Shown in pieces: positions 7,301-61,683 of a DNA stretch of 64,000 bases (position 1 is its first letter; every line of letters starts with the position of its first letter). The position numbers were made by a program, and so were the translations under genes. The stretch is from Caproiciproducens sp. CPB-2 (GTDB lineage Bacteria; Bacillota; Clostridia; Oscillospirales; Acutalibacteraceae): assembly GCF_036287215.1 (NCBI RefSeq), contig NZ_CP142860.1:2914001-2978000 (forward strand), in the 5' to 3' direction. The notes below the pieces were generated by a model. That model did not search any database. It was not told the DNA's origin and saw only the letters and a program-made list of their open reading frames with translations.

Positions 7301-7714
7301 ATGATAATAATTGTATGTGTAGACGACAACATGGGGATGATGTTCAATCATCGCAGGCAGAGTCAGGATCGAGTTCTAAGAGAACATATCCTGGAGGCTA
7401 CGAAGGACGGAAAGCTTTGGATGAACCATTATTCCGCAAAGCAGTTCTCGGAGAACGATGCACCGCAGATCAACGTGGATGACAACTTCATGTCTGAGGC
7501 TGGAGACGGCGAATACTGCTTGGTTGAGGATTGCGATGTCACCCCTTACCTGCGGTGGGCCGAAAAAATTATCCTGTACCGCTGGAACCGGCGGTATCCG
7601 GCGGATCAAACTTTCTCTGTTGATTTGGCCGAAGGCGGGTGGAAGCTCGTCCATACGGAGGACTTTGCCGGATCTTCTCACGATAAAATTACAGAGGAGA
7701 TCTATACACGATGA
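7301..7714 (+). CDS. Conserved Firmicutes protein of unknown function, 137 aa
   Basis: The start at 7301 (MIIIVCVDDNMGMMF) follows AGAGG ten bases upstream and avoids a long overlap with the preceding gene. The N-terminus VDDNMGMMFNHRRQSQD is a pattern I know from Clostridia, where it is sometimes labelled ribonuclease Z. There is no metallo-beta-lactamase motif here, so I do not accept that name. The protein is small and soluble. Its stop overlaps the start of the nuclease lipoprotein gene (ATGA), so the two are translationally coupled. Confidence 0.65.
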   Translation: MIIIVCVDDNMGMMFNHRRQSQDRVLREHILEATKDGKLWMNHYSAKQFSENDAPQINVDDNFMSEAGDGEYCLVEDCDVTPYLRWAEKIILYRWNRRYPADQTFSVDLAEGGWKLVHTEDFAGSSHDKITEEIYTR

Positions 7715-17832: not shown

Positions 17833-17853
17833 TGCAATCCTCCCTGTCCTGCA

Positions 17854-20463: not shown

Positions 20464-20489
20464 TTGTTTTCCTCCGTCTGCAAGGTGTT

Positions 20490-21728: not shown

Positions 21729-21740
21729 TGTAATATCTCC

Positions 21741-31294: not shown

Positions 31295-31561
31295 TTACGG
31301 CTTGATCTTTTGTACTGAATACAAATTGGAGCTGTTGCTGCCGTTCTCACGGTAGCACGGCTCCTTTTTTATGAAGCCGCGCATGGTGAGATCGCCCAAC
31401 GCCCGCTTGACCGTGCTGCGAGAGAGATGCAGGTCTTTGGCGATGGTGTTGATACCGGGCCAGCAAGTGCCGCTCCGGTTCGCTCGGTCTTTCAGGTACA
31501 TGTAGACCGCCTTCGCGCGGTGCGGGATGTCCTCAGCGTAAATGGTTCCGAAATAACTCAT
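31295..31561 (-). CDS. HTH_36-type helix-turn-helix protein
   Basis: This is an 88-residue protein with a replication-initiator-like winged helix (HTH_36). The segments AKAVYMYLKDRANRSGTCWP, then TIAKDLHLSRSTVKRALGDL and GFIKKEPCYRENGSNSSNLY match the family. The start overlaps the stop of the VirD4/TraG gene (ATGA). Such small proteins are common at this end of Firmicutes ICE transfer modules. It may regulate transfer or cargo, which is inference. Confidence 0.8.
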   Translation of the reverse strand: MSYFGTIYAEDIPHRAKAVYMYLKDRANRSGTCWPGINTIAKDLHLSRSTVKRALGDLTMRGFIKKEPCYRENGSNSSNLYSVQKIKP

Positions 31562-33387
31562 ACCTTATCCTCCTGCGACTGTGACCTCTGTCTCTGACGC
31601 GCTTTTGAATCCCGGAGGCTGTAGTTGGACTGCTGCTGGCTCATGCTGGCCTGCGTGCGCTTGTCGGAGACAGGCACATTCTCAACGGCTTTGTCAGAAT
31701 GGTAGCGCGTCACGATTCGCCGCTCCAGTTCGTCCTTGTCAGCGTAGGCCACCTTGCGCTCCGCCTTCTCCGGAACCTCGTACACATTATCAAAGGTGAT
31801 ACCCCAGTCGAGGAATAGCCGCAGGCGCGTCTGCATGGGATGGGTCCCGGTTTTCATCACGATGAACTGTCCCTTCGGCAGGCTCTTGAGTTCGTCCGGC
31901 ATCATCAAGGGACGCTCCATCATCTGAAGGGACTGGCTGGGATCATTCTTGCTGCGGCTAATACTGCCGCTCATGACGGTGCGGCTGCCCAGCGCCTTCG
32001 AGAGCACCTCGGCGGTCTGGCTGTTGGGCGCGAAGCCGCCGAAGATCGTGCATTGACAGTTGTCGACGATGATCTCCGAGCCCTCCTTGCCGTAGTTTTT
32101 CTGGAGCTGCCCGAAGCTCTGTATGATCGGCACCATGAGCAGGCGGCGGGAACGGGAGGCGGAGAAGATAAGCTGCAGGGATTCGATAGTCGGGATGGTG
32201 CCCAACTCGTCGCAGTAGAACACCACGCGGTTCGGCAGCTTCCCGCCATGCTCGTCGGCTACCGAAAGAATCTCCCTGTAGAGTTGTTGGATCATGAGGG
32301 ACACCATGAAGTATTTCGTCAGGTCTTCTTCCGGCAGTACGATAAAGATGGCGCTCTTGGTATTGCAGAACTTCTCTGCGTCGATGGCGGTATCGAAGCA
32401 GAGGATCTGCTCCATCTCGCTATCGAGGAAGGCGTTCAGGCGCGACAGCACCGTACTCATGACGGAGGCCATCGCCTGATCGGAAGAATTGAGCGCCGCG
32501 CCGGCAAACCATTTTGCCTTGTGGTCGGGAGGGAGCTTCGCCATCAGAAGCTGGAACTGGCTTTTGCCTCTGACATTTGACGGCTCCAAAAGCTCCTGCA
32601 CCATTTTGAACACGGAGATGATGTGACGGCGTTCCTCCGGGTGCTCGTCGTCGGGCGGCAGGAACTCCGCCAGAAGCAGGATCACCGAGGTCAGCAGACC
32701 TTCCGCCGCGTCATAGAAGAAGGCGTTTTGTCCGTAGTTGGCGCTGTCGCCGGAGGAGTTAATAATGGTCTTAGAGATGATTTTGGCATATTTCTCCGCC
32801 TTGGCTTTGGCGGCAAGGTTGCGCTCATCCTTGCGATATTCGTCCATGTATTTGTTGACGAGATGCAGAAGGTTGTTTCCGTCCGAGCGGGTGGGATTGC
32901 GCAGATCAATGACGGAGATATTGTAGCCGTAGTAGTCCCGTGCCACGGCTCCGTAGTTGCGGAACAGGTCGCCCTTGGTGTCGGTGCAGAGAAAGCTCAT
33001 GCCGGTGGCGCAGGCGTATTCCAGGTTGGGATAGAGGAAGAATGCAGTCTTGCCAACTCCGGACGCGCCGATCATCAACGTGTGGACGTCGTCGGTGTCC
33101 ACCAGCGCCGTGACCTCGTTCTTCCTGCCGACGCTGCCGAGGATGATGCCCTGTTCCTTCGGCTGCTCTTCTCCCTTGCGCCACATCTTTGGGCGAAACG
33201 GGATGCGCTTGTAGGTGCGCTCAATTTCCTTTTTTGTGGCGAACCGTGCGGTGCCGTGCTGACCGTCGCCCACCGTGCGGCTCTTGATGCCGTTGAGAGT
33301 ATAATAATGTGCCAGCAGCGACAGTCCGCCGATGACGGCGAACATGATCGCGCCTGCGGCAATCAGGATATAGATTTTGTCCTGCAT
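31558..33387 (-). CDS. VirD4/TraG-type conjugative coupling protein
   Basis: This is a 609-residue ATPase. Two N-terminal hydrophobic stretches (about 5-28) anchor it in the membrane. Walker A GASGVGKT is near 106-113, followed by SFLCTDTKGDLFRNYG. Walker B VVFYCDELGTIPTI is near 387-400 and FGGFAPNSQTAEVLSKALG follows. The C-terminal 60 residues are polar and Gln/Ser-rich. It brings the relaxase-DNA complex to the type IV secretion channel. It is four bases downstream of the Toprim gene. Confidence 0.95.
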   Translation of the reverse strand: MQDKIYILIAAGAIMFAVIGGLSLLAHYYTLNGIKSRTVGDGQHGTARFATKKEIERTYKRIPFRPKMWRKGEEQPKEQGIILGSVGRKNEVTALVDTDDVHTLMIGASGVGKTAFFLYPNLEYACATGMSFLCTDTKGDLFRNYGAVARDYYGYNISVIDLRNPTRSDGNNLLHLVNKYMDEYRKDERNLAAKAKAEKYAKIISKTIINSSGDSANYGQNAFFYDAAEGLLTSVILLLAEFLPPDDEHPEERRHIISVFKMVQELLEPSNVRGKSQFQLLMAKLPPDHKAKWFAGAALNSSDQAMASVMSTVLSRLNAFLDSEMEQILCFDTAIDAEKFCNTKSAIFIVLPEEDLTKYFMVSLMIQQLYREILSVADEHGGKLPNRVVFYCDELGTIPTIESLQLIFSASRSRRLLMVPIIQSFGQLQKNYGKEGSEIIVDNCQCTIFGGFAPNSQTAEVLSKALGSRTVMSGSISRSKNDPSQSLQMMERPLMMPDELKSLPKGQFIVMKTGTHPMQTRLRLFLDWGITFDNVYEVPEKAERKVAYADKDELERRIVTRYHSDKAVENVPVSDKRTQASMSQQQSNYSLRDSKARQRQRSQSQEDKV

Positions 33388-34353: not shown

Positions 34354-36087
34354 TCAGTAGGGAATGATGTAGTCCTGCCGCTGCTCCTGATCGTCCTCCT
34401 TGTGACCCTGGGCAATCTTCTTCTCCTTCATCTTTCTGCGGAGCTTCTTGTCGATGCCATAACCAACGCCTCCTCGCTGCGGCGGCGTACTATTCTGAAA
34501 GACTCGGCTCATGTGATGGAGCAGTCTGGTGGCGGAAAGAAAAACAGACGGGTTCTGTGCAGCCACCGCCCAATGCTCTGTGTAGAACTGCGCATACGTG
34601 TTGTCCTGTTCCGCTGACTGGGTAAACCACCTCAGAGCGGCTTTCTTGTCCTGCGGTACATCTTCGCCGACGAGATACAGCTTGCCGAGCGTATACATGG
34701 CGTTTGCATTTCCCGATTCTGCCGCGTCGGTGAAATACCGAACCGCCTCCGGGATGTCTTTCCTCACGATATCCCCTTGAAGGAGCAGTTTGCCGAAGGC
34801 ATATTCCGCATCTTGGTTTCCACTGTTGGCGAGCCGAAGCAGCATCGCCGCCGCATCACGAACCGCATCCGGCGTTGACTCGCGCGCGTGAATAATTTTG
34901 ACCAGCTTCCGTACATTCTCTGGGGCTTTTTGCTTGTCCGATGGGGCTTCCTCGAAGGTGGACTCGTGGCCGAGCAGCTTTGCTGCTTCCGTGACAACCA
35001 TATTGCTGATGGGCTTGAATTCCTTCTGCCGCGAAAGCGGCGGCAGTTCCGGCATCTCGTCCTGATAGGTGCTGACGATATCCGTGCGGATGTCATACCA
35101 GAGCCGGTAGGCTTCCGCTACGCGCGCGTCCCGCGCCAGTTCGTCCACGATCTCATCCACCATGGCCCTGACCGGTGCCTGCAGATAGCCATACTGCATC
35201 TTACCCTTGTGTGCGGACAGCTTTGCGGCGAGTTGCCCCGTCAGCTTCTCGATGCGCTCGCTTCGGATCGTGCCGCTCGCCATCTGCGCGATGAGCTCCT
35301 GATACAGCTTTCGCGCGTTTGTCTTGAGCGCGTCGCGGCGCTGGGTGTCGGCAGCATACAGCTCCCGGAGCTGCTCCGGGAAGATATTCTGTGCCAGCGA
35401 GGATTTGATCTGCGTGATGCCATGCTCGGTGAGGAAACCTTCGGTCGGATCGGTGGAATAAATGATCATATGGATATGCGGATGGTGGCTCTTGTCGTGG
35501 AAGGCCGCGTACCAGCGCAGATGCTCGGGCCTTATCTTGTATCCCTTCGCAAGCTCGGCGGTGCAGGAGCAGAGCATGGCGCGCCAGCTCTCCGGCGACT
35601 CGAAGCCCATAGCGTGTGCGTCCTCGCGCCGCAGCGAAATCACCGGCGTCCATACAACGCCGGGATGCTCCGCGATCTCCTTCTGCACCTGGGAGATTAC
35701 CAGCTTTTTACCCGTACCGTCGAAGAGGCCGTTGGCATCCAGCTTGGCAACGCCGGGGCGCATACCGATGTAGTCCACATAGTTTTCACGTTTGCCGATC
35801 TGATTGAGATTCTGTTCCAGCGCGGTCTGGATAAAGTCCGAAGCGTTTTCCCGCGTCGGTCGGGCGAGGTAATCCTCATACTCGAACCGCTTTTTCGCTG
35901 AAGGAAAATCTTTGACCAGCTGGCGGATGAGCCGGTCCTGCTTTTCCGTCGCCGGTTTCAGCCTGTCGGCATCCACTACCGGCGCGACGCCCTCTCGGGT
36001 TGCGATGTAGCGGATGAGATACGAGAGGTGCGCCGCGCTGCTGTGCCCGCTTTTAAAATGCGGTGAGATGAAAATAATGCGCGGCAT
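34354..36087 (-). CDS. MobP-type relaxase with C-terminal Sel1 repeats
   Basis: This is a 577-residue protein. The N-terminus MPRIIFISPHFKSG, then SYLIRYIATREGV, is typical of MobP3-like relaxases. The HUH metal site is SHHPHIHMIIYST near residues 198-210. It nicks oriT and leads the strand into the recipient. From about residue 410, two Sel1-like helical repeats follow: AEYAFGKLLLQGD and AMYTLGKLYLVGEDVPQDKK. These are protein-interaction repeats. Three bases separate it from the accessory protein upstream. Confidence 0.9.
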   Translation of the reverse strand: MPRIIFISPHFKSGHSSAAHLSYLIRYIATREGVAPVVDADRLKPATEKQDRLIRQLVKDFPSAKKRFEYEDYLARPTRENASDFIQTALEQNLNQIGKRENYVDYIGMRPGVAKLDANGLFDGTGKKLVISQVQKEIAEHPGVVWTPVISLRREDAHAMGFESPESWRAMLCSCTAELAKGYKIRPEHLRWYAAFHDKSHHPHIHMIIYSTDPTEGFLTEHGITQIKSSLAQNIFPEQLRELYAADTQRRDALKTNARKLYQELIAQMASGTIRSERIEKLTGQLAAKLSAHKGKMQYGYLQAPVRAMVDEIVDELARDARVAEAYRLWYDIRTDIVSTYQDEMPELPPLSRQKEFKPISNMVVTEAAKLLGHESTFEEAPSDKQKAPENVRKLVKIIHARESTPDAVRDAAAMLLRLANSGNQDAEYAFGKLLLQGDIVRKDIPEAVRYFTDAAESGNANAMYTLGKLYLVGEDVPQDKKAALRWFTQSAEQDNTYAQFYTEHWAVAAQNPSVFLSATRLLHHMSRVFQNSTPPQRGGVGYGIDKKLRRKMKEKKIAQGHKEDDQEQRQDYIIPY

Positions 36088-50478: not shown

Positions 50479-51404
50479 CTCCTATACTCGATGGGTTGCG
50501 TCAGCTTTACAACAAAAGCAAAGGAAACGAAGATTGCGCCAGCGCAGACGGCGAGGACGATCTGGCCGGGGACGGTATGCATCAACGCGGCGTACCAATC
50601 CGCATTGATGAACTTGAGCAGCGGGACGTTCAATACCACCAGCGCCGCCATGGTGATGAATTCCTTCCGTGGACCGAATACGAGGTTTTCCAGCTCGCCG
50701 TTGACGATCCGCATATCTGAGAGCTTTGCGACGATAGGCGTTAGCGTGATCTTGAGCCCCCGGTCGTACTGGCAGGCCATCACCGCGTCGCACCATTCCC
50801 GGAACACCTCGTTGTCGATGGAGCCGCGAAGCTCCATGAGCGCGGCGTCCACATCCGGGTCGACGCGCTCGACTCTGTTCAGAAAGTTCCGGAACACGCC
50901 GCGGACCGGCTGGTTGAGATAGTTGATGTTTTCCTCCACGGCGGTGAGAAAGTCCTCGCTGCGGAGATATGCCGTGGTGATGATGGAAAGCGCCGTTTCC
51001 AGCTCCGAGGCGACGTCCTTCTTGAAATGTCCTGCGGTCAGCTCGATATACCAGAATGGGACGAACATCATGCCCACCGCCAGCACCGGCACAAGGAAAA
51101 AATTGCCAATAATGATGGCAACCGCCGCACCGATTGTGAACAGCAGCAGGGATGCGGCGCAGATCACCGGGAACCGGGTTTCTTTACCGGTGGCTTTCAG
51201 GATGACTTGCGTATCCTCAATTTCCCGACGCAGAAAGGATTTTTTCCTGCGGTGCGTGCTCTCGTTGATCTCTGTGCGGATACTCTTTGGCGCGGAGGTC
51301 AGGCGCTTGAATACGCCCTCGGTGAAGTCCATGGGCGAAATGCGGAAAGTGAGAAAAGCGCCGGCGATCATGCCGGCACAGGCGACTAAGAGTAATGTGG
51401 TCAA
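50475..51404 (-). CDS. Tad pilus inner-membrane protein, TadB-like
   Basis: This is a 309-residue protein with membrane segments at both ends (LLLVACAGMIAGAFLTFRI, LLLFTIGAAVAIIIGNFFLV and a C-terminal pair). A T2SSF helical domain includes LETALSIITTAYLRSEDFLT and RVDPDVDAALMELRGSI. TadB and TadC together form the inner-membrane platform. It overlaps cpaF by four bases. Confidence 0.85.
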   Translation of the reverse strand: MTTLLLVACAGMIAGAFLTFRISPMDFTEGVFKRLTSAPKSIRTEINESTHRRKKSFLRREIEDTQVILKATGKETRFPVICAASLLLFTIGAAVAIIIGNFFLVPVLAVGMMFVPFWYIELTAGHFKKDVASELETALSIITTAYLRSEDFLTAVEENINYLNQPVRGVFRNFLNRVERVDPDVDAALMELRGSIDNEVFREWCDAVMACQYDRGLKITLTPIVAKLSDMRIVNGELENLVFGPRKEFITMAALVVLNVPLLKFINADWYAALMHTVPGQIVLAVCAGAIFVSFAFVVKLTQPIEYRR

Positions 51405-52924
51405 GCGGTTGCCGCCTCCTTTCTTAGAAATGATTGCAGCTGCGTATCCGGCATGCCGTTGTCGACCAGCCGTCTTTGCAGGCTCTGTGAGATGTCCATG
51501 TCCCGTTCATGGTATCCCTCAATGGTGTAATTGCCATTTTCATAGTAGTTTTTGGTGATGTGATAGCGGTAAATGGGATTGTATCGCCGCGTCCCATCTG
51601 GCAGGATCTCACACTCCATGATCTCCATGAGGCGGCGCTGTTTGTTCTCAAGCTGTTTACAAAAAACCACCAGCGGATAAGCCTCGGTTACGTTGTCCAT
51701 GAGGGTCGCGTCGGACATATCTACGGCGCGCTTGCACAGGGAGACCATGCGGCGATAGGTGGCCTCGCAGGAGCTGGAGTGGATGGTGGTGAGCACGCCC
51801 ACGCCGGTTCGGGCCGCCTCCTGTGCCGCGTTTGCTTCCTCGCCGCGCATCTCACCCACAAAGATCAGGTCGGGGTTGAATCGGAGAGCAATGTCCAGCA
51901 GGCTGATCTGCGTGATGCGCTGACGGTCGTTTTCGCTGTCGCGGGTGAGCGTGTGAACGACGGAGTTGACCACTTGGCCATCCTTCTCCCGCACCAGCTC
52001 TATCTCACGGGAGCCGTTCTCGATGGTGAAAATACGCTTGTTATCCGGTATGGTGGTCAGAAGCCAGCCTGCCATGGTGGTTTTGCCGGAGCTGGTGGCT
52101 CCCGCCACACAGATGGAGATACCGTAACGCAGGCAGGCGGCAAGAAAATCCAGCATTTCATCCGTGGCCGTCCCGCCGTCCACAAAGTCGGCCTTGGTCA
52201 TGTTCTGCGGATTGACGATACGGATGGAGGCGGCCACGCCCACGTCCGCGTCCACTATCGGCGTTTTCAGGGCGGCGATGCGGATATTCTGGCTGAGCGT
52301 GCCGGTGACTACGGGGCTGGCGTTGTCCAGTATGACGCCGGAAGTGTGCAGCATGCGCCGGATGACGTTGATCGCATGATCCGGAGAGTCGAAGTGTTCT
52401 TTGAGCTTTTCCGACAGGCCGTTGGAATACTGGATCTCCACGTCCCGCCAGGAGTTGACGTCGATTTCTTCGATGCCGGAACCGAAGATGTATTTCGTAA
52501 GGAAGCCGTATTCCGCCATTTCGGAGTAGATGGTGTCTACCAGCTCGTCCATAGTCATGCCTTTGACGGCGATGCGCTTGTCCTGAATGTATTTTGCCGC
52601 GTATCGCTTGATTTGTTCCCGGCTGTCGGATTCTCCCGTCATCAGGGTGGAATAATTGGCCACGATATAGCCCTGTACCTCACGGCACACGTCGGGGAAC
52701 TCGCGGGAGTCATCCTCCGGCGTGAAGAAAAGAGAATGCACCCGTCCGGTCAACACAGGCTTACCCTCGGCAGGGGGTGCTTCTTCGCTGGGGATTGCGG
52801 TGAGGGCTGCTGGTGCGGCAATGGTTTCCACCGCTTTTTGCGTGTGCTTTTCCTCCAGATTTGGCACAGGCGTCGCCGGCGCTGCCGGTACGAATACGGA
52901 GGCGCTTCGTTTTTTCCCTAACAT
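51401..52924 (-). CDS. cpaF: Tad secretion ATPase CpaF/TadA
   Basis: This is a 507-residue protein. The N-terminal part is helical and Pro/Ala-rich. Walker [11 protein letters not shown] is near residues 274-283, followed by [14 protein letters not shown], and Walker [20 protein letters not shown] with the conserved Glu. The His box TTIHSSS follows. It is the motor of the Tad-type pilus. AGGAGG precedes the start, and the gene overlaps the CpaE-like gene by seven bases. Confidence 0.95.
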
Positions 52925-53730
52925 CCTAACACCTCCTTCAGAATTCGATCCAGTTCCTTTCGGAACAGACGGCTATCCTTCATGGTGAGGTCGGCGAGGA
53001 GATTCCCGGAAAGGTACTGTTCCTCCAGTTCCTGCGAATAAGGCAGCTTAAAGGCCACCGTGCCCAGCACCTTTCCGATGTGCTCGGCGGCCTGCTGGGG
53101 CTTCACGTTCGACGCCACCTTGTACTGCTTGTCCGCGTCCCACTTGGTATCCTTGAGGAGCGGGAGCTGGCTGGAGAAATATCCAACGGATTTGAGGTCG
53201 CAGTTGGCGAGTCTCAGGACGCTGTCCGCCTCCATCAGCGCCACGGCAGAGAGGATGTCGTTGGAAATATAACTGCCGCAGTCCACAACGACATAGGGTG
53301 CAAGCTTCCGCAGCCCATCCAGCAGTTCTATGGCCTGCTGCTCCGTATAGGGAGGATAGGTGTATTCGTTTTCTCCTTTTTTCATTCCGAGTATCGTCAG
53401 ATAGGGCATCCGCTTATGGGTAACGCAGTTGTTTTTGATGAGCGCGTCGCTCATATGGGGCACGGCGAGGATGCCGCCGAGGGAGCGCTCACACTCCAGC
53501 TCCGAGGGCGGGCAGATGCAGGGCAGCATGGGCGCGGTCATGTCGCACAGGAGAAGCGCAACATTTTTCTTTTTGTCGGCGAGAGCCTTCGCTAACTTTA
53601 CAGCCGCAACGGTCTTCCCGCTGCCGGGGCTGCCCCAGACCGCAAGCATTCCGCCGCTTTCGGCCTGTACCTCCTGTTCCGGTTCATCGTTTGCGCCGCG
53701 GTGAAATATGCTTCTTTTCTTAAAGTTCAT
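52918..53730 (-). CDS. CpaE/TadZ-like ParA-family ATPase
   Basis: This is a 270-residue protein. P-loop GSPGSGKTVAAVKLAKAL is at residues 33-50. A deviant ParA-type protein follows (VALLLCDMTAPMLPC, VVVDCGSYISND). TadZ/CpaE proteins place the Tad machine at the right site in the cell. The start overlaps the end of cpaB (ATGA). Confidence 0.85.
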   Translation of the reverse strand: MNFKKRSIFHRGANDEPEQEVQAESGGMLAVWGSPGSGKTVAAVKLAKALADKKKNVALLLCDMTAPMLPCICPPSELECERSLGGILAVPHMSDALIKNNCVTHKRMPYLTILGMKKGENEYTYPPYTEQQAIELLDGLRKLAPYVVVDCGSYISNDILSAVALMEADSVLRLANCDLKSVGYFSSQLPLLKDTKWDADKQYKVASNVKPQQAAEHIGKVLGTVAFKLPYSQELEEQYLSGNLLADLTMKDSRLFRKELDRILKEVLGC

Positions 53731-54539
53731 CGGTTTGAAGCCGCCTCGCTTTCCAGCGAGTTCTCAGCGGCTGGATCAGTAACCTCGCTTTCATCTGTTT
53801 TTTCCTCCTGAGTGGGATAGAGCTTTTCAATCAGCTCGTCCTGGGCCGTGATGAACGCATTGGCGACGTCCTGCGTGCCGCGATAGACGAGCGTCAGGTG
53901 GATCTTCGCGTCCTGTTCCAGCTCGGCCAGCACCTTCGCCTGCTCTGGACGGACGAGGAAGGTCACGGTCGAGGGAAGATCTTTTTCATCCTCGTTTGTC
54001 GCTTCGCCAGTGTTGGCGTCATAACCGGTGGAAGCGGTCACGCTGATAACCTCCACGTACTGCAATTCGGGCGGCACGACGGTTTTACCGCTCTCCTGAT
54101 AATCCGCAACAAGGATCGAGACAATATCGCCGGATTTGAGCTTGCCGGAAAGGCCGGTGGCGAAGCTCTTGATCGTAACACTCATGGCCTGCTTGGTCCC
54201 GTCCAGATTGTAAAGGTAGGAGTTTTCGGCGGCAGGCGCGTCGGAGAGCTTGGACGGCAGGATATAATCGCCCGCGGCAAGGTCTGCCGCGGCGTACTTG
54301 CCCACGACGGACGCAGTGTCGTGCAGGACGTTGTCCGGCAGGTTGTACGCGCCGACCTCCACGGTCTGCACCATGTCCGCTGTGACCTGCTCCCCAGCGT
54401 CAATTGCCTTGGTCACGCGGACGATTTCTTCTTTCTGGCTGATGCTTCTGTTAAAAAGCGGCGTGATGCCGAAACAGATCACCAGCGCCGCAAGGATGCA
54501 GATGACGCCGACGACCGTCCGGTTTTTGAAAATACTCAT
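53727..54539 (-). CDS. cpaB: CpaB (RcpC) pilus assembly protein
   Basis: This is a 270-residue protein. An N-terminal signal/anchor (TVVGVICILAALVICFGITP) is followed by a SAF domain (KAIDAGEQVTADMVQTVEVG, then LAAGDYILPSKL). A domain with VRPEQAKVLAELEQDAKIHL and an acidic tail complete it. It is typical of CpaB in Gram-positive Tad loci, where it works outside the membrane. The gene lies 13 bases after the prepilin peptidase gene. Confidence 0.88.
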   Translation of the reverse strand: MSIFKNRTVVGVICILAALVICFGITPLFNRSISQKEEIVRVTKAIDAGEQVTADMVQTVEVGAYNLPDNVLHDTASVVGKYAAADLAAGDYILPSKLSDAPAAENSYLYNLDGTKQAMSVTIKSFATGLSGKLKSGDIVSILVADYQESGKTVVPPELQYVEVISVTASTGYDANTGEATNEDEKDLPSTVTFLVRPEQAKVLAELEQDAKIHLTLVYRGTQDVANAFITAQDELIEKLYPTQEEKTDESEVTDPAAENSLESEAASNR

Positions 54540-54552
54540 AAAATAGAGCCTC

Positions 54553-54966
54553 CTAAATCATGAAATATGCGGCGGTAAAGCCGACAGCGAGAAACGGGGC
54601 CAACGGGTAGCTTTCCGGCGCGGCCCCTTGTTTTCGAATTCGGCGGATGAGCTTATCGCCGAGGGCAAACAGCAGGAAGATGAAAAGCGCGAGAGTTAGA
54701 CCTGCCAGCCCCGGCCCAAGTCCCAGCACGAAGCCCGCGGCGGCGATGAGCATGGTGTCTCCTGCGCCGCCTCTGCCTCGGCCCGCCGCAAAGAAAAACG
54801 GGACCGCAAGGAGTAGTCCAAAAAGATTGGCGGGGCTGAAAGAAATCAGCCCCGCCAGAGTGAGAAGGATGCACGCGCTGTAAGGGATCGTCCTGCTGCG
54901 CAGGTCGGACACACCGGCGAAAACCAGTGGCCCAACAAACAGCAGGCCGCTGATCAGTTGCGGCAT
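54553..54966 (-). CDS. Type 4 prepilin peptidase (A24, TadV/CpaA-like)
   Basis: This is a 137-residue membrane protein with the two aspartates of A24 aspartic peptidases: SDLRSRTIP near residue 21 and GGAGDTML near 91. It has several hydrophobic segments. It should cleave the GEGYID-type leaders of the pilin and pseudopilins of this locus. It starts three bases after the stop of the chimeric pilin frame 54970-55200. Confidence 0.88.
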   Translation of the reverse strand: MPQLISGLLFVGPLVFAGVSDLRSRTIPYSACILLTLAGLISFSPANLFGLLLAVPFFFAAGRGRGGAGDTMLIAAAGFVLGLGPGLAGLTLALFIFLLFALGDKLIRRIRKQGAAPESYPLAPFLAVGFTAAYFMI

Positions 54967-54969
54967 AGA

Positions 54970-55200
54970 TCAGCCGAGCTGGTCGACCGCGCCGCCATAA
55001 CCGAACATGTCGTTGATGGACTGTTCCAGTTTGGGGAGAACGGTGTCGCCGAACAGCTTATACAGGGTGAACAGCAGCAGAGCGCCCAGAACGACGGCAA
55101 TCAGAATTTTGATGGCTTTTCTTCCGTTTTCATTTACACGATTGAGCACCGACCTCTCTAGGAGATTTAAAAATCCGTATCTTTTCATTGATAAAACCAT
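54970..55200 (-). CDS. C-terminal half of the interrupted Flp-type pilin, fused to a start from the inserted element
   Basis: This is a 76-codon frame. Its last 48 residues, from AIKILIAVVLGALLL on, are the C-terminal half of the DUF6133/Flp-like pilin whose N-terminal half is at 61093-61263. The first 28 residues (MVLSMKRYGFLNLLERSVLN...) come from the left end of the inserted element, which also provides AAAGGCGG ahead of the ATG. The junction is GCCATC on the minus strand (55116-55111). The fusion lacks the GEGYID processing motif, so it is probably not a normal pilin. It may be expressed. Confidence 0.6.
   Translation of the reverse strand: MVLSMKRYGFLNLLERSVLNRVNENGRKAIKILIAVVLGALLLFTLYKLFGDTVLPKLEQSINDMFGYGGAVDQLG
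55111..55116. repeat. Target core GATGGC, left copy
   Basis: GATGGC at the left junction matches GATGGC at the right junction, 6,000 bases away. It lies in frame in the pilin gene (the Ala-Ile codons GCC ATC on the minus strand). Confidence 0.85.
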
Positions 55201-55240
55201 TGATTTTTCCGCCTTTCCTGAAAATTTGGCAGCAAAAAGG

Positions 55241-55268
55241 CACGATCAAACCGCAGGGTTCAATCGTG
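55241..55268. terminator. Bidirectional terminator at the left end of the element
   Basis: The arms CACGATCAAACC and GGTTCAATCGTG form a 12-bp stem with wobble pairs around GCAG. It is followed by TCAATTTTTT on the plus strand and CCTTTTT on the minus strand. It ends the recombinase transcript about 55 bases after the TnpC-like gene. Confidence 0.85.
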
Positions 55269-55322
55269 TCAATTTTTTGCATGTGTTTTTGGGGTATAAT
55301 CCAGTCGGCATACCCCGAAAGA

Positions 55323-55727
55323 CTACTCCAGATTTTGTCTCTGCATCAGCAGATACAGCCTGCCCCTGAGCAATTCGCATTCCTCCTTCAGCGCAACTTT
55401 TTCTTCCCGCAGCCGTTTGATTTGCGTGTCCTTTTCCCTGATTTCCGCCCGAAGTTTTTGCTCCTTCGTCTGATGAACTGGAACCTTTTCATCCGTGGTT
55501 GGGGTCTCCGGGCGGGTAAAAGCGGCAACATACTCCGTGAGTACAGCCCGGACGTGGGGCTTTGCAAATACGGAACGGGACAAACCCGTGTACTCCATTA
55601 AATTTTTGATGCTGAGGCGGCAGCCCTGCGCCTGTAATTCGGAAAGAGCGTGCAGGACCTTGTTAATGGTTTCCTGCCTTGTCTGTTCCTGTTTCGCGGA
55701 CAGTGTTTCGGGCAGTCGGCTATTCAT
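55323..55727 (-). CDS. TnpC-like transposition accessory protein (DUF6262)
   Basis: This is a 134-residue protein. The N-terminal part KQEQTRQETINKVLHALSEL, then LSIKNLMEYTGLSRSVFAKP and HVRAVLTEY, is the DUF6262 pattern of Tn554 TnpC. The second half is a coiled coil (EIREKDTQIKRLREEKVALK). TnpC influences orientation and frequency of Tn554 transposition. The start overlaps the end of the third recombinase gene by eight bases. Confidence 0.85.
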   Translation of the reverse strand: MNSRLPETLSAKQEQTRQETINKVLHALSELQAQGCRLSIKNLMEYTGLSRSVFAKPHVRAVLTEYVAAFTRPETPTTDEKVPVHQTKEQKLRAEIREKDTQIKRLREEKVALKEECELLRGRLYLLMQRQNLE

Positions 55728-57246
55728 TTTCCACCACCTCCATTCTGACCTTGCCGATCACCTTCCGAAACAGGTCGGCATTTCTGAGCGCGTTTTGGCG
55801 AAGCAGCGGAAACTGTGCGAAACGTTCTGCTTTTTCATCCCATGCCGCAGCCTGCTCTTCAAAAAGCGGGAGCTGCTCCGTGTCGGGAACAAATTTTTCA
55901 CAGCTCAGGCAGTTCCACATATCGCTTTTGCAGTGGGTGATGTCGCAGCAGATCCCGCCGCGTACCCGATGGGCGCGCAGATTTTTCAGAAGCCGTACTT
56001 CACTCTGTTCATCCATGTGGAGAATCCGGCCGCCAAACAGGACATAGGGGTTTCCCGCAGGTTCGTTGAAGACTTGGCGCTGCCTGTTTAGCGTCTGTTC
56101 CGGATTTTGATCCAAGTGGGCATAAGAGCCCCAAAGCATGGCATCCCCGTGATGGCCGGTCATTTCGGCAACCTGTTCAATGGTAAAGCCCGCCAAAAGC
56201 CGGTCGGTGATTCCGTTGTGACGCAGCTGATGGCTTGTAAATACATATCGCCCGCCGCTTTCGTCCCGAATGTCATAACGTTCACAGATTTCTTTTAGGC
56301 GGTAGCTGACGCTGTACCATTGCAGCACAGGATAATTGTTTCGCCAGTAAACTGATCCGTCCTTTTGGACAAGCTTTTCCCGATAAGCAAGCAGCGCCCC
56401 GCGCTTACTCTCCGGCATAAATTCCTGTAACGCTTCTGCGGCCCTTTGCTGTTGCTGGATCAGATCAATGAGGAACGCGCCCATACCCTCGTTCCGAATA
56501 TGGATGGAGCGCAGAATCGGTGCTTTGTGACCGCCGTTCTGCTTCCATGTGGGGATAAACAGCACGTAATCGCCCATATACCGTTTCATGCAGTCGATCT
56601 TCATGGATAAAACTTCGTTGATGCGGGATGGGATGAGGCGCAAAATCCAATAGACCACGCGGATTTCAAGCGGGATTTCACCTTTGTAGAATGCCCGGTC
56701 AAGCTGCTCCGTTACAAAATCGGGAATAAATTTTTCTTCTCTTTTTTCATGAGCCGGATAGGGATTCTTTCGGAAGGGATTTTTCAGTGTTTCTCCATCA
56801 AAGTCTTTCATAATTTCATACAAAGTGCTTACGTTGCCCCAGATGCGGTTTTTGCAGCCGCTTGTATAGCCGCGACCGTCAAGCTCCTGCCGGAAGAGGT
56901 AGACCAGATGTGTGTTAACCATTGACAGTTCCAGGATACCGCGCCCCGACAGAAACGCGCAGAAGACGGCAAGTCCGAATAGATCGGTTTTGACCGTCCT
57001 GACCGTGATACCATTGAGCAGCCGCAGAATCACATAGTATTTCATGATATCCCGGAACTCTTCCAGGATGTGTGCAAAATAAATGGTAATCATGTGCTTG
57101 TCCCCGTATGGGTAGCGGGTTCGGTTGTCGCAGATCCAGATGTCATTCTCGAAACGGATACGGCTTCCAAGCTCCTGCAGGAAGCCGATGTAGCGTGCCT
57201 TTTCGTCAGCGTCAAACCTGAGCAGTGATGTCACTGGAATTCCCAT
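55720..57246 (-). CDS. Tyrosine recombinase (third of the trio)
   Basis: This is a 508-residue protein. The catalytic pattern is visible: Arg in PSRINEVLSMKIDCMKRY, HQLRH in the segment FTSHQLRHNGITDRLL, then GHHGD and the Tyr in WGSYAHLDQ. A Cys-rich end (CCDITHCKSDMWNCLSCEKF) may bind zinc, as in Tn554 TnpB. It shares one base with the second recombinase gene. Confidence 0.9.
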   Translation of the reverse strand: MGIPVTSLLRFDADEKARYIGFLQELGSRIRFENDIWICDNRTRYPYGDKHMITIYFAHILEEFRDIMKYYVILRLLNGITVRTVKTDLFGLAVFCAFLSGRGILELSMVNTHLVYLFRQELDGRGYTSGCKNRIWGNVSTLYEIMKDFDGETLKNPFRKNPYPAHEKREEKFIPDFVTEQLDRAFYKGEIPLEIRVVYWILRLIPSRINEVLSMKIDCMKRYMGDYVLFIPTWKQNGGHKAPILRSIHIRNEGMGAFLIDLIQQQQRAAEALQEFMPESKRGALLAYREKLVQKDGSVYWRNNYPVLQWYSVSYRLKEICERYDIRDESGGRYVFTSHQLRHNGITDRLLAGFTIEQVAEMTGHHGDAMLWGSYAHLDQNPEQTLNRQRQVFNEPAGNPYVLFGGRILHMDEQSEVRLLKNLRAHRVRGGICCDITHCKSDMWNCLSCEKFVPDTEQLPLFEEQAAAWDEKAERFAQFPLLRQNALRNADLFRKVIGKVRMEVVENE

Positions 57247-59564
57247 CAGGCTTCACCGCCTTCCAGCGCCCTGACAATACCCGCGTATCCCGTGGCCAGA
57301 GCCTTTTCCTGTTTGTACTCTGGAAAATTCTCATATTCGGAAATGCCGTTTGCATGGTAAACGGAGAGAAGAGCGTTCAGCCGTTCTGCCTGTTCCGTGT
57401 GAAGCTGGCGCCAATAAGGCAGATACCTGACGCCTGTGCACAGATTTTTGCAATTGACGCAGTTTACCAAACTGTTTCGGCTGGTGCATCCGCCCTCGCT
57501 CAGCTTTTTAAGGCAATGCCCGAACTCCACCCTGCGGCTTTCAAGATAGAAGTCCACATAGAGGGCACGGCGCTCCTCCTCGGAAAACCGTGAAAGCTGC
57601 TTGTCCGACAGCATCAGTTCAAACTTTGTCTTGAAGAACGCCGTGTTCATTTCAGCCAGCTTTTTCTTTCGGACGTCGGCGTAATAGGCGGCGGAGGTTG
57701 ATGGGGACAGATGCCCAAGAAGATAAGCGAGTTCTTCCATTGTGCCGCCGTTTTCAATTAACGTCACGGCCAAAGTCTTCCGATATTGCCTCGCGGTGAA
57801 ATGCCAGAGTGCACCGTTCTCATCCCTCAAGTCGTAGCGCTTTGCAATTTGATCCAGCTTTACGAGAAAATACTCTGGATTGATCATGGATGCCTTGAAG
57901 TTTTTTCGCTTGTCAATAAAAATATAAGGAAGGCCGTACTCCTTGCGTAGCGCTTCCGTCTTTGCGGCCTGTGCAGCGATTTCACCGGCAAGTTCGCCGG
58001 TGATCATGATCCGGCGATGATCCTCCCTGCCGTGACGCCTCCGGGCCGCGATTACCTTGTATGGAATGTAGCGCAAATTAAAAATGCCGTCATAACTTGT
58101 CTTTTCAAGGCAATTATCCTCCAGAAAAACGGCCTCTTTCGTCCGTATACCCGTCTGGGACAGAATCTGGTACAAGAGCCGGTATTCGCCGCAGAGCTCA
58201 TACATGTGCCGGTCCATCTCGTTCATTACAGACTCGGGAATAATGAGAGTGTTCTTGATATAGTCCTTGGAATTGTGAAAAACGAATGCCCGGAAAGGGT
58301 TGCTTTGGGGAACCGGGCTTTTGATGTTCTCATCCCGAAGGCCGCCCATCAGGTAATCCGTGACAGTTTGCATGGCGCTGAAAATGCTCATTGTGTTGCT
58401 GAAAGCCCACTGTTTCTCACCCGGCTCGTCACTCCTGTTTTCCAGCGCGATGTGGAGGGCTTTCACGTCGCATTCGGAGATGTCGGAAAAGAAATGAATC
58501 CGTCTGTTGTGGCTGCTGAGGAAATTGACGCCGTACGCCACGGCAGTCAAAAACCTGTCTTTGATCTGAATGAAACCCGAAAAACGCTGCTTCAGGTAAT
58601 ATTTGACCTCCATACGCAGGGACGCGGAGCGAATGACGGTAAAATCCATTTTGTTAAACCGCAGGGTCGGGCCGTGTTGGGCGTACAATACCCATTGATC
58701 GCTGTGAACATCCAGCTGCAAATGGTTTTCAGCCGGAAATTTTTCATACTGCAGCTGGAATTCTTCGTTGGCAACCCGTCTCATCATTTGGTCAAAACTG
58801 CATGGAATCAGTTTCGATGAGGTCCTTGTTCCGCCATACACATTTCCAAACAGTTTCGACAGGCTGATTTGCTCGCGCCGGTCTGTGAAAGTGTGTGCAA
58901 TCCCGCGCAGATAAGCTTCCATCGTTTGCCTGTCTGTAAGCGCCGCATATTCAGCACATCGGAGCAGGCCGATTTTTCGAGTGATGTCCTTAAGGTCTAA
59001 CCCTCCGAGCATTTGTTTTTCGATTCTCTCAGACCAGAAAGCCGAAAACTCGGATTCCAGGATTTCCTGATACCTGCGGCTGCCGGGCACCTCGTCAAAA
59101 ATATACGTATAATCGTAATGAATGGGATCGTTTTCGCATCGCAGCATTTCCTCAAAGACGAAATGAGCACCGAGCTCCTTGGAACGGATGATGTATTCAC
59201 TTTCAGCCCAACGGATTACCGCAGCTCTCGCGTAATACCGGAACATCTCATTGAAATCATCCGTAAAGGCCATGCTTCCGAGCTTCACAAAGGATATCCC
59301 GCCAAAGAAGCGGAAACTCTCGCAAAGCCCGGCGTTTTCTTCCCGGTAGGACTGACGCTTCAAAAGATTCCGGTACTTTTCAATTGCCAAAATCATCTCA
59401 TCATCGCTGATGTCTTTTAGGTGCCTCATGGTGAGCCGGACGCCGTCGATGCTCCACATGGCGGACGCTCGTTTGATCCAAAGCCGTTCAATCATCAGAG
59501 AATCCCTCCTCCGGGTGAAGTTTCCGCAGAATCCGGTGCGCGACAATGGGATTGTTCTCGTCAC
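57246..59564 (-). CDS. Large tyrosine recombinase (second of the trio, TnpB-like)
   Basis: This is a 772-residue protein. The long N-terminal part is helical. The catalytic domain has TGIRTKEAVFLEDN, FTARQYRKTLAVTLIENG, LGHLSPSTSAAYYADV with the Tyr nucleophile, and a Cys-rich end (GGCTSRNSLVNCVNCKNLC). The second Arg/His box reads RQYRK rather than HxLRH, so one His is replaced. It overlaps the first recombinase gene by 77 bases. Confidence 0.88.
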   Translation of the reverse strand: MTRTIPLSRTGFCGNFTRRRDSLMIERLWIKRASAMWSIDGVRLTMRHLKDISDDEMILAIEKYRNLLKRQSYREENAGLCESFRFFGGISFVKLGSMAFTDDFNEMFRYYARAAVIRWAESEYIIRSKELGAHFVFEEMLRCENDPIHYDYTYIFDEVPGSRRYQEILESEFSAFWSERIEKQMLGGLDLKDITRKIGLLRCAEYAALTDRQTMEAYLRGIAHTFTDRREQISLSKLFGNVYGGTRTSSKLIPCSFDQMMRRVANEEFQLQYEKFPAENHLQLDVHSDQWVLYAQHGPTLRFNKMDFTVIRSASLRMEVKYYLKQRFSGFIQIKDRFLTAVAYGVNFLSSHNRRIHFFSDISECDVKALHIALENRSDEPGEKQWAFSNTMSIFSAMQTVTDYLMGGLRDENIKSPVPQSNPFRAFVFHNSKDYIKNTLIIPESVMNEMDRHMYELCGEYRLLYQILSQTGIRTKEAVFLEDNCLEKTSYDGIFNLRYIPYKVIAARRRHGREDHRRIMITGELAGEIAAQAAKTEALRKEYGLPYIFIDKRKNFKASMINPEYFLVKLDQIAKRYDLRDENGALWHFTARQYRKTLAVTLIENGGTMEELAYLLGHLSPSTSAAYYADVRKKKLAEMNTAFFKTKFELMLSDKQLSRFSEEERRALYVDFYLESRRVEFGHCLKKLSEGGCTSRNSLVNCVNCKNLCTGVRYLPYWRQLHTEQAERLNALLSVYHANGISEYENFPEYKQEKALATGYAGIVRALEGGEA

Positions 59565-60633
59565 GGTAGGAAGTGATGGAGTCGATACGCCGCCAACCGG
59601 TCTGGTGCAGGATATCCGTATCGGAGGAACCGCACTCCAGCATCCGCATGACTTTTGTACTTCTTCCGCTATGGGTGCGGATTTTTACTGGATCAAGCCC
59701 AGCCCGCCGGGCGCAGGCTTTAAAAACCTTGTAGTAATTCAAATACCGTAAGGGCTCTCCCTGATTTCTGCCACGGTTCAGATTGATAAAGATGTACTCC
59801 GAAATTCTGCCGCTTTGATTCTCCGCCAGCATGCGTTCGGTCTGCAAATATCTGTTCAAAAGCGCACAGGTTGTGATAGGCAAGGCGATAACCCGATGCG
59901 GGTTTTCTCTTCCGTATATGGCGTCTTCCCGTCCTTTGGAACGGGAAGAACGGATACAGCGTTCTGCCAGGTCATAGTCTTCGAGCCGCATGCTCAGCAC
60001 CTCGTCAATGCGGAAACCCTCCAGTGTGATTCTGAAAACGACCTCATCCCTCAGTGTGAGAAAATTACCGGACAGGGCCTTGATTTCACTGTCGGTGTAC
60101 CATTTGACATATTCGCGCCGGCCGCCAAGCCTTGGAAGATTTATGCCGACGAGATGTTTGTAGTCGTAGCTGTAAATCTGTCCGTACAGAAAGGATTTTG
60201 AAGCCCTTGCTTTTTTGCTGTCGGTTCTGAAGCACATTCCGGTTTCGTAATTGTCGTCCAGCCATCGGTACAGCGCGGTGATAACCGTGAGGTACTGTGA
60301 TAGGGTTGAATAGGATACGGGGCGCTGCGGGGAGTAAAGTTTTAGGTTCGAGAGATCGCCATAGATCATCCGATGAAAGAAAGCTTTCACGTCCCTGTTT
60401 GTGGCCGCGTCGTACTCAATCCCCCTGTCATCGAGATAATTCAGAAACGTGACAATTTTTTTGCCGTATTCCTCGCCGGTCCGCGCCGACCTCATGTAGT
60501 TGGTTTCAAGCCACTCATTCAGAACGGGTGCGGGCAGGAGCCGATCCGTGATAAAATGCCGGAAGACCGTCCCTCCCGCGTCCGTTTCAAAGGCGAACCT
60601 GACCAATCGAAAACGTTTGCTGTTTGTTTCCAT
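59488..60633 (-). CDS. Tyrosine recombinase (first of the trio, TnpA-like)
   Basis: This is a 381-residue protein. Catalytic residues lie in LEGFRIDEVLSMRLEDY (Arg), IRTHSGRSTKVMRMLE (His and Arg), GWRRID and TSYRDE (Tyr). The N-terminal SAM-like domain has NRDVKAFFHRMIYGDL. The length is like Tn554 TnpA. Its gene starts the recombinase unit, 46 bases after a -10-like element. Confidence 0.9.
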   Translation of the reverse strand: METNSKRFRLVRFAFETDAGGTVFRHFITDRLLPAPVLNEWLETNYMRSARTGEEYGKKIVTFLNYLDDRGIEYDAATNRDVKAFFHRMIYGDLSNLKLYSPQRPVSYSTLSQYLTVITALYRWLDDNYETGMCFRTDSKKARASKSFLYGQIYSYDYKHLVGINLPRLGGRREYVKWYTDSEIKALSGNFLTLRDEVVFRITLEGFRIDEVLSMRLEDYDLAERCIRSSRSKGREDAIYGRENPHRVIALPITTCALLNRYLQTERMLAENQSGRISEYIFINLNRGRNQGEPLRYLNYYKVFKACARRAGLDPVKIRTHSGRSTKVMRMLECGSSDTDILHQTGWRRIDSITSYRDENNPIVAHRILRKLHPEEGFSDD

Positions 60634-60679
60634 GCCAAACCTCTTTCCGCCCGGTGATATTTCATTTACGGGCGAAAAG

Positions 60680-60703
60680 AGTATACCATGCCCGGCTGCA
60701 TGG
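60680..60703 (-). promoter_or_regulatory. Extended -10 promoter and inverted repeat ahead of the recombinases
   Basis: On the minus strand TGGTATACT (ending at 60680) is an extended -10 element. Just upstream lie arms CCATGC and GCATGG (60686-60691 and 60698-60703) with six bases between. The repeat covers the -35 zone and could be an operator that controls recombinase synthesis. Confidence 0.5.
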
Positions 60704-60718
60704 AATGGGTAAGCCGCA

Positions 60719-60949
60719 TTAGCCCTTGTAGTTGAACATGTCCTTGATGCGCTGGGTTACGGTAGGCAGGATCGTATTGCCGAACAGAGCGTAGAGCCCG
60801 GCGAGAAGCAATGCGCCCAAAACTACACTGATGAGTATGGCTATCGCCGTATCGAGCGCTCCTTGGCCTCTCCTGTCGGTCAGAACCTGTTTTGCCCTTA
60901 CTGCAAAGGCAGTGGACTTCCGCCTGAGAAAATTACGGATCTTTTTCAT
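60719..60949 (-). CDS. Intact Flp-type pilin (DUF6133) carried by the inserted element
   Basis: This is a 76-residue protein. AGGAGG lies nine bases ahead of the start at 60949. A basic leader (MKKIRNFLRRKS) is followed by RRGQGALDTAIAILISVVLG, then ALLLAGLYALFGNTILPTVT and RIKDMFNYKG. It aligns without gaps with the rejoined host pilin from the Asp-Thr-Ala-Ile stretch on. It lies inside the element boundaries, so it is a passenger that might replace the broken pilin. The Tyr of the GYID motif is replaced by Ala. Confidence 0.85.
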   Translation of the reverse strand: MKKIRNFLRRKSTAFAVRAKQVLTDRRGQGALDTAIAILISVVLGALLLAGLYALFGNTILPTVTQRIKDMFNYKG

Positions 60950-61001
60950 GGACTGATTCCTCCTGTAAAGATAAAAATTTTAGTTACTTCTAAACAAGCA
61001 A

Positions 61002-61029
61002 GGGAGAACCCCTTAAAAAGGCTTCTCCC
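61002..61029 (-). terminator. Hairpin ahead of the passenger pilin gene
   Basis: Outer arms GGGAGAA and TTCTCCC and inner arms CCTT and AAGG surround an AAA loop. It lies inside the right end of the element, upstream of the passenger pilin gene. It could cut off read-through from the transfer operon. A T-rich stretch follows only loosely. Confidence 0.45.
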
Positions 61030-61086
61030 TCTCAGACACTCTCCCGTTTTCAAAGTTGTGGAACGGATTTAATCGTGTGAATTCCT

Positions 61087-61110
61087 ATCGTGTCAACGAA
61101 GTAAAGAAAA
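61087..61110. repeat. Right terminus of the element
   Basis: From the core inward the minus strand reads TTTTCTTTACTTCG and then ACACGAT. The left terminus (55117-55142) reads TTTTCTTCCG and then ACACGAT. A further ATCGTGT copy is at 61070-61076. These repeated motifs are probable recombinase binding sites. Confidence 0.7.
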
Positions 61111-61263
61111 GATGGCAGTGTCGATATAGCCCTCGCCGGAATTGCCGGAAAGGGCCCGGCAGGTAAACGCGCGGCTGCGGGACAGGGCGTTCTGTGCCTT
61201 TGTGCGGATGGTGAAAGCGACGTTCTCAACGGTGGTTATGATGGCATTGATGGTCTTTTTCAT
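61093..61263 (-). pseudogene. N-terminal half of the interrupted Flp-type pilin
   Basis: The start at 61263 has AGGAGG ahead of it. 51 codons encode a leader and SGEGYIDTAI, the prepilin motif. Then element sequence adds FSLLR and a stop. The missing half is in 54970-55110, and joining at GCCATC gives a 97-residue pilin in frame. The product made here would lack the membrane helix that forms the pilus core. Confidence 0.88.
61111..61116. repeat. Target core GATGGC, right copy
   Basis: This is the second copy of the 6-bp core at the junction between the element and the N-terminal half of the pilin gene. One copy should remain after excision. Confidence 0.85.
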
Positions 61264-61299
61264 AAATCGTTTTCCTCCTATAATTCGATGGTGCGTGGC

Positions 61300-61683
61300 T
61301 TACATGGACTGGCAGGACATGGCCTGGGTCCGCTGGGGCGCGGATGCTTCCGCCTGCGTGTGTGCCTGGGAAATCGTCTGCTCATAAGCTTTCATGACGG
61401 CGGCGTTGAACTGTTCGCGGGACTCCTTTGTGCAGGGGAAACAGATATCCTTGTATTCGCTTCCGACCTTGTACTGAGGCATCGCCACGAAAAGTCCCTT
61501 GTTGCTCTCCAGCACCTTCACGCCGCGAACGGCGAAGGCACCGTTGATGTTGACGCTGGCTGTTGCTCTCTGCGTGCCGCTGCTTTTTGCGCCGAAGATC
61601 CGGACGTCATAGTTGACGGGGGTCTGCTCTGCGGTTTTCTCCGGGGCGGTCTGCTCCGCCGCTTGAGTCTGTGTTTTTGCCAT
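61300..61683 (-). CDS. SpoVG-like DNA-binding protein
   Basis: This is a 127-residue protein. A Gln/Glu/Thr-rich leader is followed by NYDVRIFGAKSSGTQRATAS, VNINGAFAVRGVKVLES and NKGLFVAMPQYKVGSEYKDI. This is the SpoVG fold with its typical beta-sheet core. SpoVG proteins bind nucleic acid and regulate surface and division genes in Firmicutes. ICE-borne versions with long tails are common. It lies 37 bases ahead of the pilin gene and just after a terminator. Confidence 0.88.
   Translation of the reverse strand: MAKTQTQAAEQTAPEKTAEQTPVNYDVRIFGAKSSGTQRATASVNINGAFAVRGVKVLESNKGLFVAMPQYKVGSEYKDICFPCTKESREQFNAAVMKAYEQTISQAHTQAEASAPQRTQAMSCQSM

Follow-up and report, generated by a model that had tools for sequence, protein, structure and literature searches.

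A Tn554-related element at a fixed codon of a Tad-type pilin gene in Clostridia carries a pilin altered beside its landing site, probably as a replacement

Why should a mobile element that cuts a pilin gene in two also carry a complete pilin gene of the same family? The question arises in Caproiciproducens sp. CPB-2, whose 3.45-Mb genome is a single contig and of which we analyzed a stretch of 64,000 nucleotides (positions 2,914,001-2,978,000; hereafter the window). Here a pilin gene next to Tad genes, in a region that looks like an integrative and conjugative element (ICE), is interrupted by a block present once in the genome. The best reading of this block, to which we assign a probability of about 0.68, is that it is a site-specific transposon related to Tn554 that carries a putatively target-resistant replacement for the pilin it destroys. 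On the minus strand its genes follow in the order passenger pilin, TnpA-like recombinase, TnpB-like recombinase, third recombinase and DUF6262 protein. The parts of the locus, in window coordinates and with site A as defined below, are as follows.

55111-55116: 6-bp core at the tnpC-side end, GATGGC (on the gene strand GCCATC, codons Ala-Ile)
61111-61116: 6-bp core at the pilin-side end, GATGGC
55117-61110, minus strand: element between the cores, 5,994 bp; type of boundary established to the base from three near-identical relatives
55117-55142, plus strand: terminal repeat TTTTCTT...ACACGAT, read in the sequence
61072-61110, minus strand: terminal repeat TTTTCTT...ACACGAT...ACACGAT (as read on the minus strand)
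61111-61263, minus strand: N-terminal half of the split resident pilin, with core; runs 5 codons into the element, then stops
60719-60949, minus strand: passenger DUF6133 pilin, 76 amino acids (Pfam E = 3e-30), with Ala, not Lys, after the site-A core
59488-60633, minus strand: TnpA-like tyrosine recombinase, 381 amino acids (Phage_integrase E = 6e-16), supported by its motif
57246-59495, minus strand: TnpB-like large tyrosine recombinase, 749 amino acids from its ATG, similar to TnpB of the Tn554 family; HxxR box without His
55720-57246, minus strand: third tyrosine recombinase, 508 amino acids, with R, HxxR, H and Y all present
55323-55727, minus strand: TnpC-like protein, DUF6262, 134 amino acids (E = 5e-16)
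55239-55270, minus strand: hairpin followed by a T run, just ahead of the restart open reading frame (ORF); z = -4.5, same place in relatives
55117-55200, minus strand: restart ORF of 28 codons, fused in frame to the pilin C-terminal half; ATG 84 nt before the core
54970-55116, minus strand: C-terminal half of the split resident pilin, with core (DUF6133 E = 2e-18)

An earlier sequence-only reading of the locus had bounded the element precisely by GATGGC on both sides, inward TTTTCTT and ACACGAT near the ends, and all of these were located: TTTTCTT occupies 55117-55123, with its reverse complement ending at 61110, while ACACGAT lies at 55136-55142 and ATCGTGT at 61087-61093 and again at 61072-61078. 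Excising the element together with one core joins the two pilin halves in frame into a protein of 97 residues, as had been proposed, and the passenger and the resident C-terminal half belong to one family, DUF6133; the N-terminal half alone has no Pfam match. The same pilin gene without the insert, which that reading had suggested looking for, occurs in the same genus (locus L060), in the uninterrupted order SpoVG-pilin-A24-CpaB, and the order pilin-A24-CpaB is found in L061.

Relatives were sought by scanning a profile of the third recombinase against one genome per species for 84,980 species, in a search that required one of two short peptide patterns and therefore misses relatives. It gave 18 loci, whose junctions were read after tblastn of the window proteins against all of them. 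DUF6133 pilin sequence stands at one or both junctions in nine (L006, L007, L009, L012, L013, L014, L017, L018 and L021), which, with the junctions in the window, bears out the earlier proposal that a Tn554-like element has entered the Tad-type pilin gene of a conjugative element. Two others have entered different genes, L011 a YrrC/RecD-like helicase (left junction at 6474) and L016 a C5 methylase (right junction at 7418). In the remaining seven the target is not readable: L010 is cut at the right core by the contig end, the right end of L008 is decayed, L015, L022 and L023 are truncated, and L019 and L020 are distant. In L016 the terminal repeat contains a start codon, and L014 is a record of an Alphaproteobacteria metagenome-assembled genome (MAG), possibly through a binning error, in a family found otherwise in Firmicutes-type records.

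Within the pilin genes, two landing positions recur. The first, site A, comprises the codons for [Ala/Gly][Ile/Val/Leu], followed by Lys-Ile-Leu (the window, L006, L009, L014, L017 and L018), and the second, site B, those for [Val/Ile][Leu/Met], followed by Pro-Thr (L007, L012, L013, L021 and the copies in genome G581). The 6-bp core consists of the target's own two codons and differs between sites, so that GATGGC, which the sequence-only reading had taken as a shared site, is rejected as a fixed recognition motif. Only L060 has the site-A hexamer GCCATC among 15 intact pilins read at the DNA level, and because the core is variable, uninterrupted pilins lacking GATGGC would mislead if taken as a refutation, as had been proposed.

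When 398 genomes of the phylum were surveyed for DUF6133, 16 proved to carry the family. Among them, G581 (contamination estimate 5%) holds at least three site-B copies with different cores, namely one complete element (L124), further left ends (L126, L127) and a further right end (L125); the left ends lie at three different pilin sites, and the copies other than L124 are cut by contig ends. Module genes occur in 5 of the 64 stretches fetched around DUF6133 matches (L066 and L124-L127), a set that covers part of these matches and includes L066 for its recombinase match. Two further candidates for split pilins were rejected: L068 has a degraded pilin and no module was found there, and L059 has two intact pilins. 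The ORF at 9357-11297 of L059, between SpoVG and the second Tad-locus pilin, resembles by eye a reverse transcriptase with an HNH-like tail.

The element ends are best read from three differently named MAGs (L012, L013 and L021), which carry blocks of 9,218-9,220 bp that differ by one single-nucleotide polymorphism and one 2-bp indel and that split orthologous pilins. Their upstream flanks are 70-85% identical in most 250-bp segments (27-70% in a few) and their downstream flanks 22-69%, with a sharp drop in identity at the predicted element ends. Because the junction anatomy recurs in relatives and these three copies give base-exact ends, the boundaries lie beyond chance. The left cores of the three (ATTTTG, ATTTTG and ATTCTG) are each host's own, the right cores are GTCCTC, ATCCTT and GTCATG, and all six code for Val/Ile-Leu/Met. 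Unequal cores are also present in L007 (GTGATG/GTGCTG) and L014 (GGTCTG/GGGGTT). Read from sequence comparison, they are the trace expected of the mode in which Tn554, strand-biased circularizing elements (SEs) and Tn552-II bring in an attachment site (att), as excerpts of two papers describe it (PMC10214605, PMC12486829). Since the right cores still code for pilin-like residue pairs, the previous sites that donated them were probably pilin genes as well.

In all eight pilin-targeting or probably pilin-targeting lineages with a readable left end (the window, L007, L009, L010, L012-type, L014, L017 and L124-type) an intact passenger pilin is present. Eight of the 18 loci (L007, L009, L010, L012, L013, L014, L017 and L021) have it immediately within the left end, where L018 retains, by eye, no more than a C-terminal pilin remnant. 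The passenger lies directly behind the truncated resident pilin and in the same direction, and in L017 the resident N-terminal half reads in frame into it. A scan of 60600-61320 for promoters found a single promoter-like site, on the opposite strand and no better than in shuffled sequences. The stretch from the left end to the passenger contains a long inverted repeat (60985-61045 in the window, 45-125 in L009 and 6215-6300 in L124).

It is at the landing site that passengers differ from the genes they follow. All six joined split hosts and 64 of 70 resident pilins have Lys following the site-A core (70/76 together), whereas the passengers of elements with a read site-A junction (the window, L009, L014 and L017) have Ala, Ser, Gln and Ser, with Lys in none of the four. 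The L010 passenger, whose site is not read, has Asn. Passengers of site-B elements keep the site-A Lys in two of three cases (L012-type and L124-type, with Asn in L007), and at site B itself the three carry Glu, Glu and Met, never Thr. Loss of Lys separates the four site-A passengers (4/4) from other pilins (6/76) in a Fisher test (p = 1.3e-4), as it does all passenger lineages (6/8 versus 6/76; p = 5.5e-5), with Arg counted as lost Lys and relatedness not handled in either test. The 76 pilins are the 70 residents and six split hosts, with passengers counted apart and the near-copies L126 and L127, the twice-fetched L174 and L175, both L144 rows and lone C-terminal halves omitted; a looser set of 80 others includes three L012-type passengers and the C-terminal halves of the window, L006 and L018. 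In database searches, where pilins come without known genomic context, the window passenger and its nine closest homologs (82-100% identity) have A, T, T, V, A, T, T, S, S and T at site A, with Lys in 0/10, and a search with an intact pilin gave Lys in 120/120 of the best 120 of 4,500 matches. Pilin targeting combined with a pilin passenger, common to much of the family, and the alteration of that passenger at the landing site are new beyond the sequence-only reading.

The right end has an anatomy of its own. A hairpin pattern is found there in 11 of the 18 loci, and the window and L006, with letters outside the pattern, show the hairpin by eye; folding gives z = -5.8 in L009 and -6.1 in L012. 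After the hairpin, several copies have a stretch resembling a ribosome-binding site and a start codon, and an in-frame ATG leader precedes the core at five of nine pilin right junctions (by 84 nt in the window, L006, L007 and L012 and by 87 nt in L018). In the window, the C-terminal half stops 3 nt ahead of the next gene start. The leader may keep ribosomes on the downstream operon.

We propose that the element works in the following way. Its recombinases would cut at one of two fixed positions in the DUF6133 pilin genes of Tad operons, and strand exchange over the 6-bp core would insert a circular copy, so that the left core comes from the new host and the right core from the previous site. 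Insertion kills the resident pilin but places the element's own complete pilin gene right behind the truncated one in the same direction, where it could be expressed. In several copies, translation of the distal half, adjacent to the downstream Tad genes, would resume from the start codon and short leader at the right end. The element's own pilin, changed beside the landing site, should not itself be a target. Pilus function would thereby be spared, and the element would not ground the conjugative carrier on which it rides. Sequence comparison shows the boundaries, the target, the common direction of passenger and resident, the passenger, the spread of the element and the site-matched change, whereas the circular intermediate, expression, rescue of the pilus and immunity are inferred.

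Several observations weigh against the transposon with a target-resistant replacement pilin. Mobility and the circle would follow from comparison, neither having been seen directly, and the cores in the window are identical, so that this insertion bears no brought-in trace. The target of L009 is read from some 20 bases at the end of a contig, the TnpB of L007 and that of L017 each lie in two frames, which makes some copies broken ones, and four of the nine pilin right junctions (L009, L013, L014 and L021) have no in-frame ATG. Resident pilins can themselves be without Lys at site A (6/70: four Arg, one Val and one Thr), and the passenger of L007, a site-B element, has lost it too. In the search with the window passenger, Lys was found in 59 and another residue in 61 of the best 120 of 634 matches. 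The site-B half of the pattern is weak, because two of the four site-A passengers (Thr, Ser, Met and Thr), the window's split host (Lys at this position) and 14 of the 70 residents (the other 56 having Thr) are also without Thr. Finally, an underpowered pair test of Lys loss on the pilin tree gave no significance, the tree being unresolved and offering only two supported independent passenger/resident pairs.

What else could place a pilin in an element that splits pilins? The passenger may be ordinary cargo that diversifies the pilus, for instance against phages or toward new mating partners, through allele swapping, with the changed residues marking a divergent lineage; we consider this unlikely, but the likeliest of the rivals. 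It would agree with the diversity of the passengers, which are 42-82% identical to each other and of which seven of eight fall loosely in one part of the unresolved tree, and with the absence of site-B Thr from half of the site-A passengers. Passengers are also exchanged between elements, since those of L007 and L010 are sisters although their recombinases sit in different clades; in the recombinase tree the three site-B lineages form one clade (100/100), and L010 groups with L009 (site A) and L008 (100/100). Swapped cargo fits less well with the match to site A, where Lys is absent from 4/4 elements with a read site-A junction but kept in 2/3 site-B elements, or with the window passenger and its nine closest homologs, which vary in the residue without one of them having Lys. 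Among the best 120 of 634 matches to the window passenger, 31 of 32 pilins without site-B Thr are also without site-A Lys.

Still less probable is that the pilin gene is a convenient conserved site, an ICE safe harbor, in which the passenger arose as an accident of imprecise excision with no selection for replacement. The insertions L011 and L016, which lack a pilin passenger, speak for it and against the replacement reading, as does L008, which is close to L010 but has no passenger, no left end and a decayed right end. Set against this are the intact passenger in all eight pilin-targeting or probably pilin-targeting lineages with a readable left end and the purifying selection in the one measurable close passenger pair, L007 and L010 (82% identity; nonsynonymous divergence dN 0.11, synonymous divergence dS 0.38, ratio 0.28). 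Two tandem pilins separated by an unrelated recombinase island, rather than one mobile unit, are conceivable because resident pilins do occur as two or three tandem copies without an element (L062, L064 and L065), but this reading is already contradicted by the passenger inside the block common to L012, L013 and L021.

To which family, then, does this transposon belong? The Tn554 family includes Tn554, Tn558, Tn6188 and Tn553/Tn552-II. By the features tested, the element is Tn554-related but lies outside classical Tn554, GInts, SEs and RIT elements, with GinA-D set apart by description. A module of four genes defines it: TnpA, a large TnpB, a catalytically complete third tyrosine recombinase and TnpC/DUF6262. 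In an alignment of catalytic motifs with 20 rows (L023 and L066 left out), R, HxxR, H and Y are complete in the third recombinase in 19, the 20th (L022) being truncated, and the His of the TnpB HxxR box is absent from every row that covers it. TnpB is 25% identical (E of about 4e-12) to TnpB of Tn554-type elements on staphylococcal and enterococcal plasmids, in whose records a DUF6262 protein also follows TnpB, and which carry two recombinases each in L072 and L073. TnpA matches 42 plasmid records, at below 26% identity in all 20 listed; in 148 relatives its four matches are the own genome and three weak partial ones. The third recombinase has no match in 72,556 plasmid records and, in 394 genomes of the order (E <= 1e-40), matches its own genome and one partial sequence; two viral scans found none.

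The comparison with known systems draws on excerpts of the papers cited. Members of the Tn554 family likewise combine TnpA, a large TnpB and TnpC/DUF6262, are site specific and bring a donor core of 6-7 bp to one end without target duplication (PMC12486829, PMC10214605). In contrast, Tn554 itself has two recombinases and TnpC only and inserts in radC, whereas here a catalytically complete recombinase stands between TnpB and TnpC, the target is a DUF6133 pilin gene and the passenger is different. The nearest precedent is Tn552-II, which carries a homolog of its target gene, tgl, for which the authors suggest a rescue (PMC12486829). That case concerns one element, however, in which tgl retains a copy of att at the corresponding position (PMC12486829), unlike the present passengers, with residues changed beside the site in several element lineages. 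GInts (ginABCD), to which the element is related by gene order, have three recombinase genes and a small TnpC-like gene in order and are site specific, with 6-7 nt staggered cuts (PMC5385486), but GinC lacks some catalytic residues (PMC5385486) and the catalytic tyrosine (PMC10214605), all of which the third recombinase has. Their cargo follows ginD, with no target-gene copy described in the excerpts of PMC5385486. SEs share a 6-bp footprint copied from the donor side and a set of four genes, but differ in order (intA-tfp-intB-srap), in motifs (Tfp is noncatalytic) and in host (Gammaproteobacteria; PMC10214605).

The sequence-only reading had seen a mixture of RIT and Tn554. Its Tn554 part holds, through the similarity of TnpB and the DUF6262 gene; the RIT part, which rested on three recombinase genes in a row, does not, because archetypal RIT recombinases are 315-410 amino acids long and make up the whole element (PMC10214605, in the excerpts available), compared to 381, 749 and 508 amino acids and a fourth gene, DUF6262, here. 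A literature search, with most subscription papers outside its reach, found no mention of DUF6133, none of Tn554 with a tyrosine recombinase and a pilin, and none of a Tad pilus with an ICE in Clostridia; the term DUF6262 does occur in two papers. By eye, cargo after tnpC in L007 (11900-13850) and L010 (5900-6940) resembles toxin-antitoxin or nucleotidyltransferase pairs.

The carrier region is represented by these features of the window.

51401-54966, minus strand: downstream Tad genes, namely an A24-like prepilin peptidase (24.9 bits, below the Pfam cutoff of 26.5), RcpC/CpaB, and two that we take to be a CpaE-like ATPase and CpaF
61300-61683, minus strand: SpoVG-like gene upstream of the resident pilin (E = 2e-24)
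31558-33387, minus strand: VirD4-type coupling protein
34354-36087, minus strand: MobL relaxase

Because of the coupling protein and the relaxase, the carrier looks conjugative and ICE-like. The same mobile region has a BREX-like defense cluster (BrxL, PglZ and an Eco57I-type methylase) at 15769-25355.

One resident pilin suggests what may become of such a passenger. The resident pilin at 7666-7992 of L165 (G702:C165) has Val and Glu at sites A and B, respectively, and is preceded by AATGTACACGATTAAA, a string that is also found near both ends of L014, and no recombinase was found within 8,978 bases around it. This single case looks like a passenger left behind after loss of its element and possibly domesticated; the resident pilin of L148 (Thr) shows no end-like scar by eye. 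Engineered home-and-rescue gene drives likewise disrupt a gene and supply a copy resistant to the disruptor, although they are nuclease based and built in flies, so that the likeness is one of analogy only (excerpts of PMC7968924). We tentatively propose, at a little less than even odds for the whole, that these elements are a natural home-and-rescue transposon family, which would break an ICE pilin at a fixed codon, replace it with a changed, re-insertion-proof pilin and also convert ICE pilin populations to the resistant allele, with the replaced pilin sometimes outlasting the element, as perhaps in L165. If this is true, it would be a recurrent natural case of a mobile element destroying a conserved gene while supplying a target-resistant substitute, and target immunity by recoding would become directly testable in bacteria. 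The Tad-type pilins of Clostridia ICEs, annotated as DUF6133, would then be linked to an ICE-riding parasite, and Tn554 would gain a variant that has a third recombinase and sharply defined, predictable boundaries.

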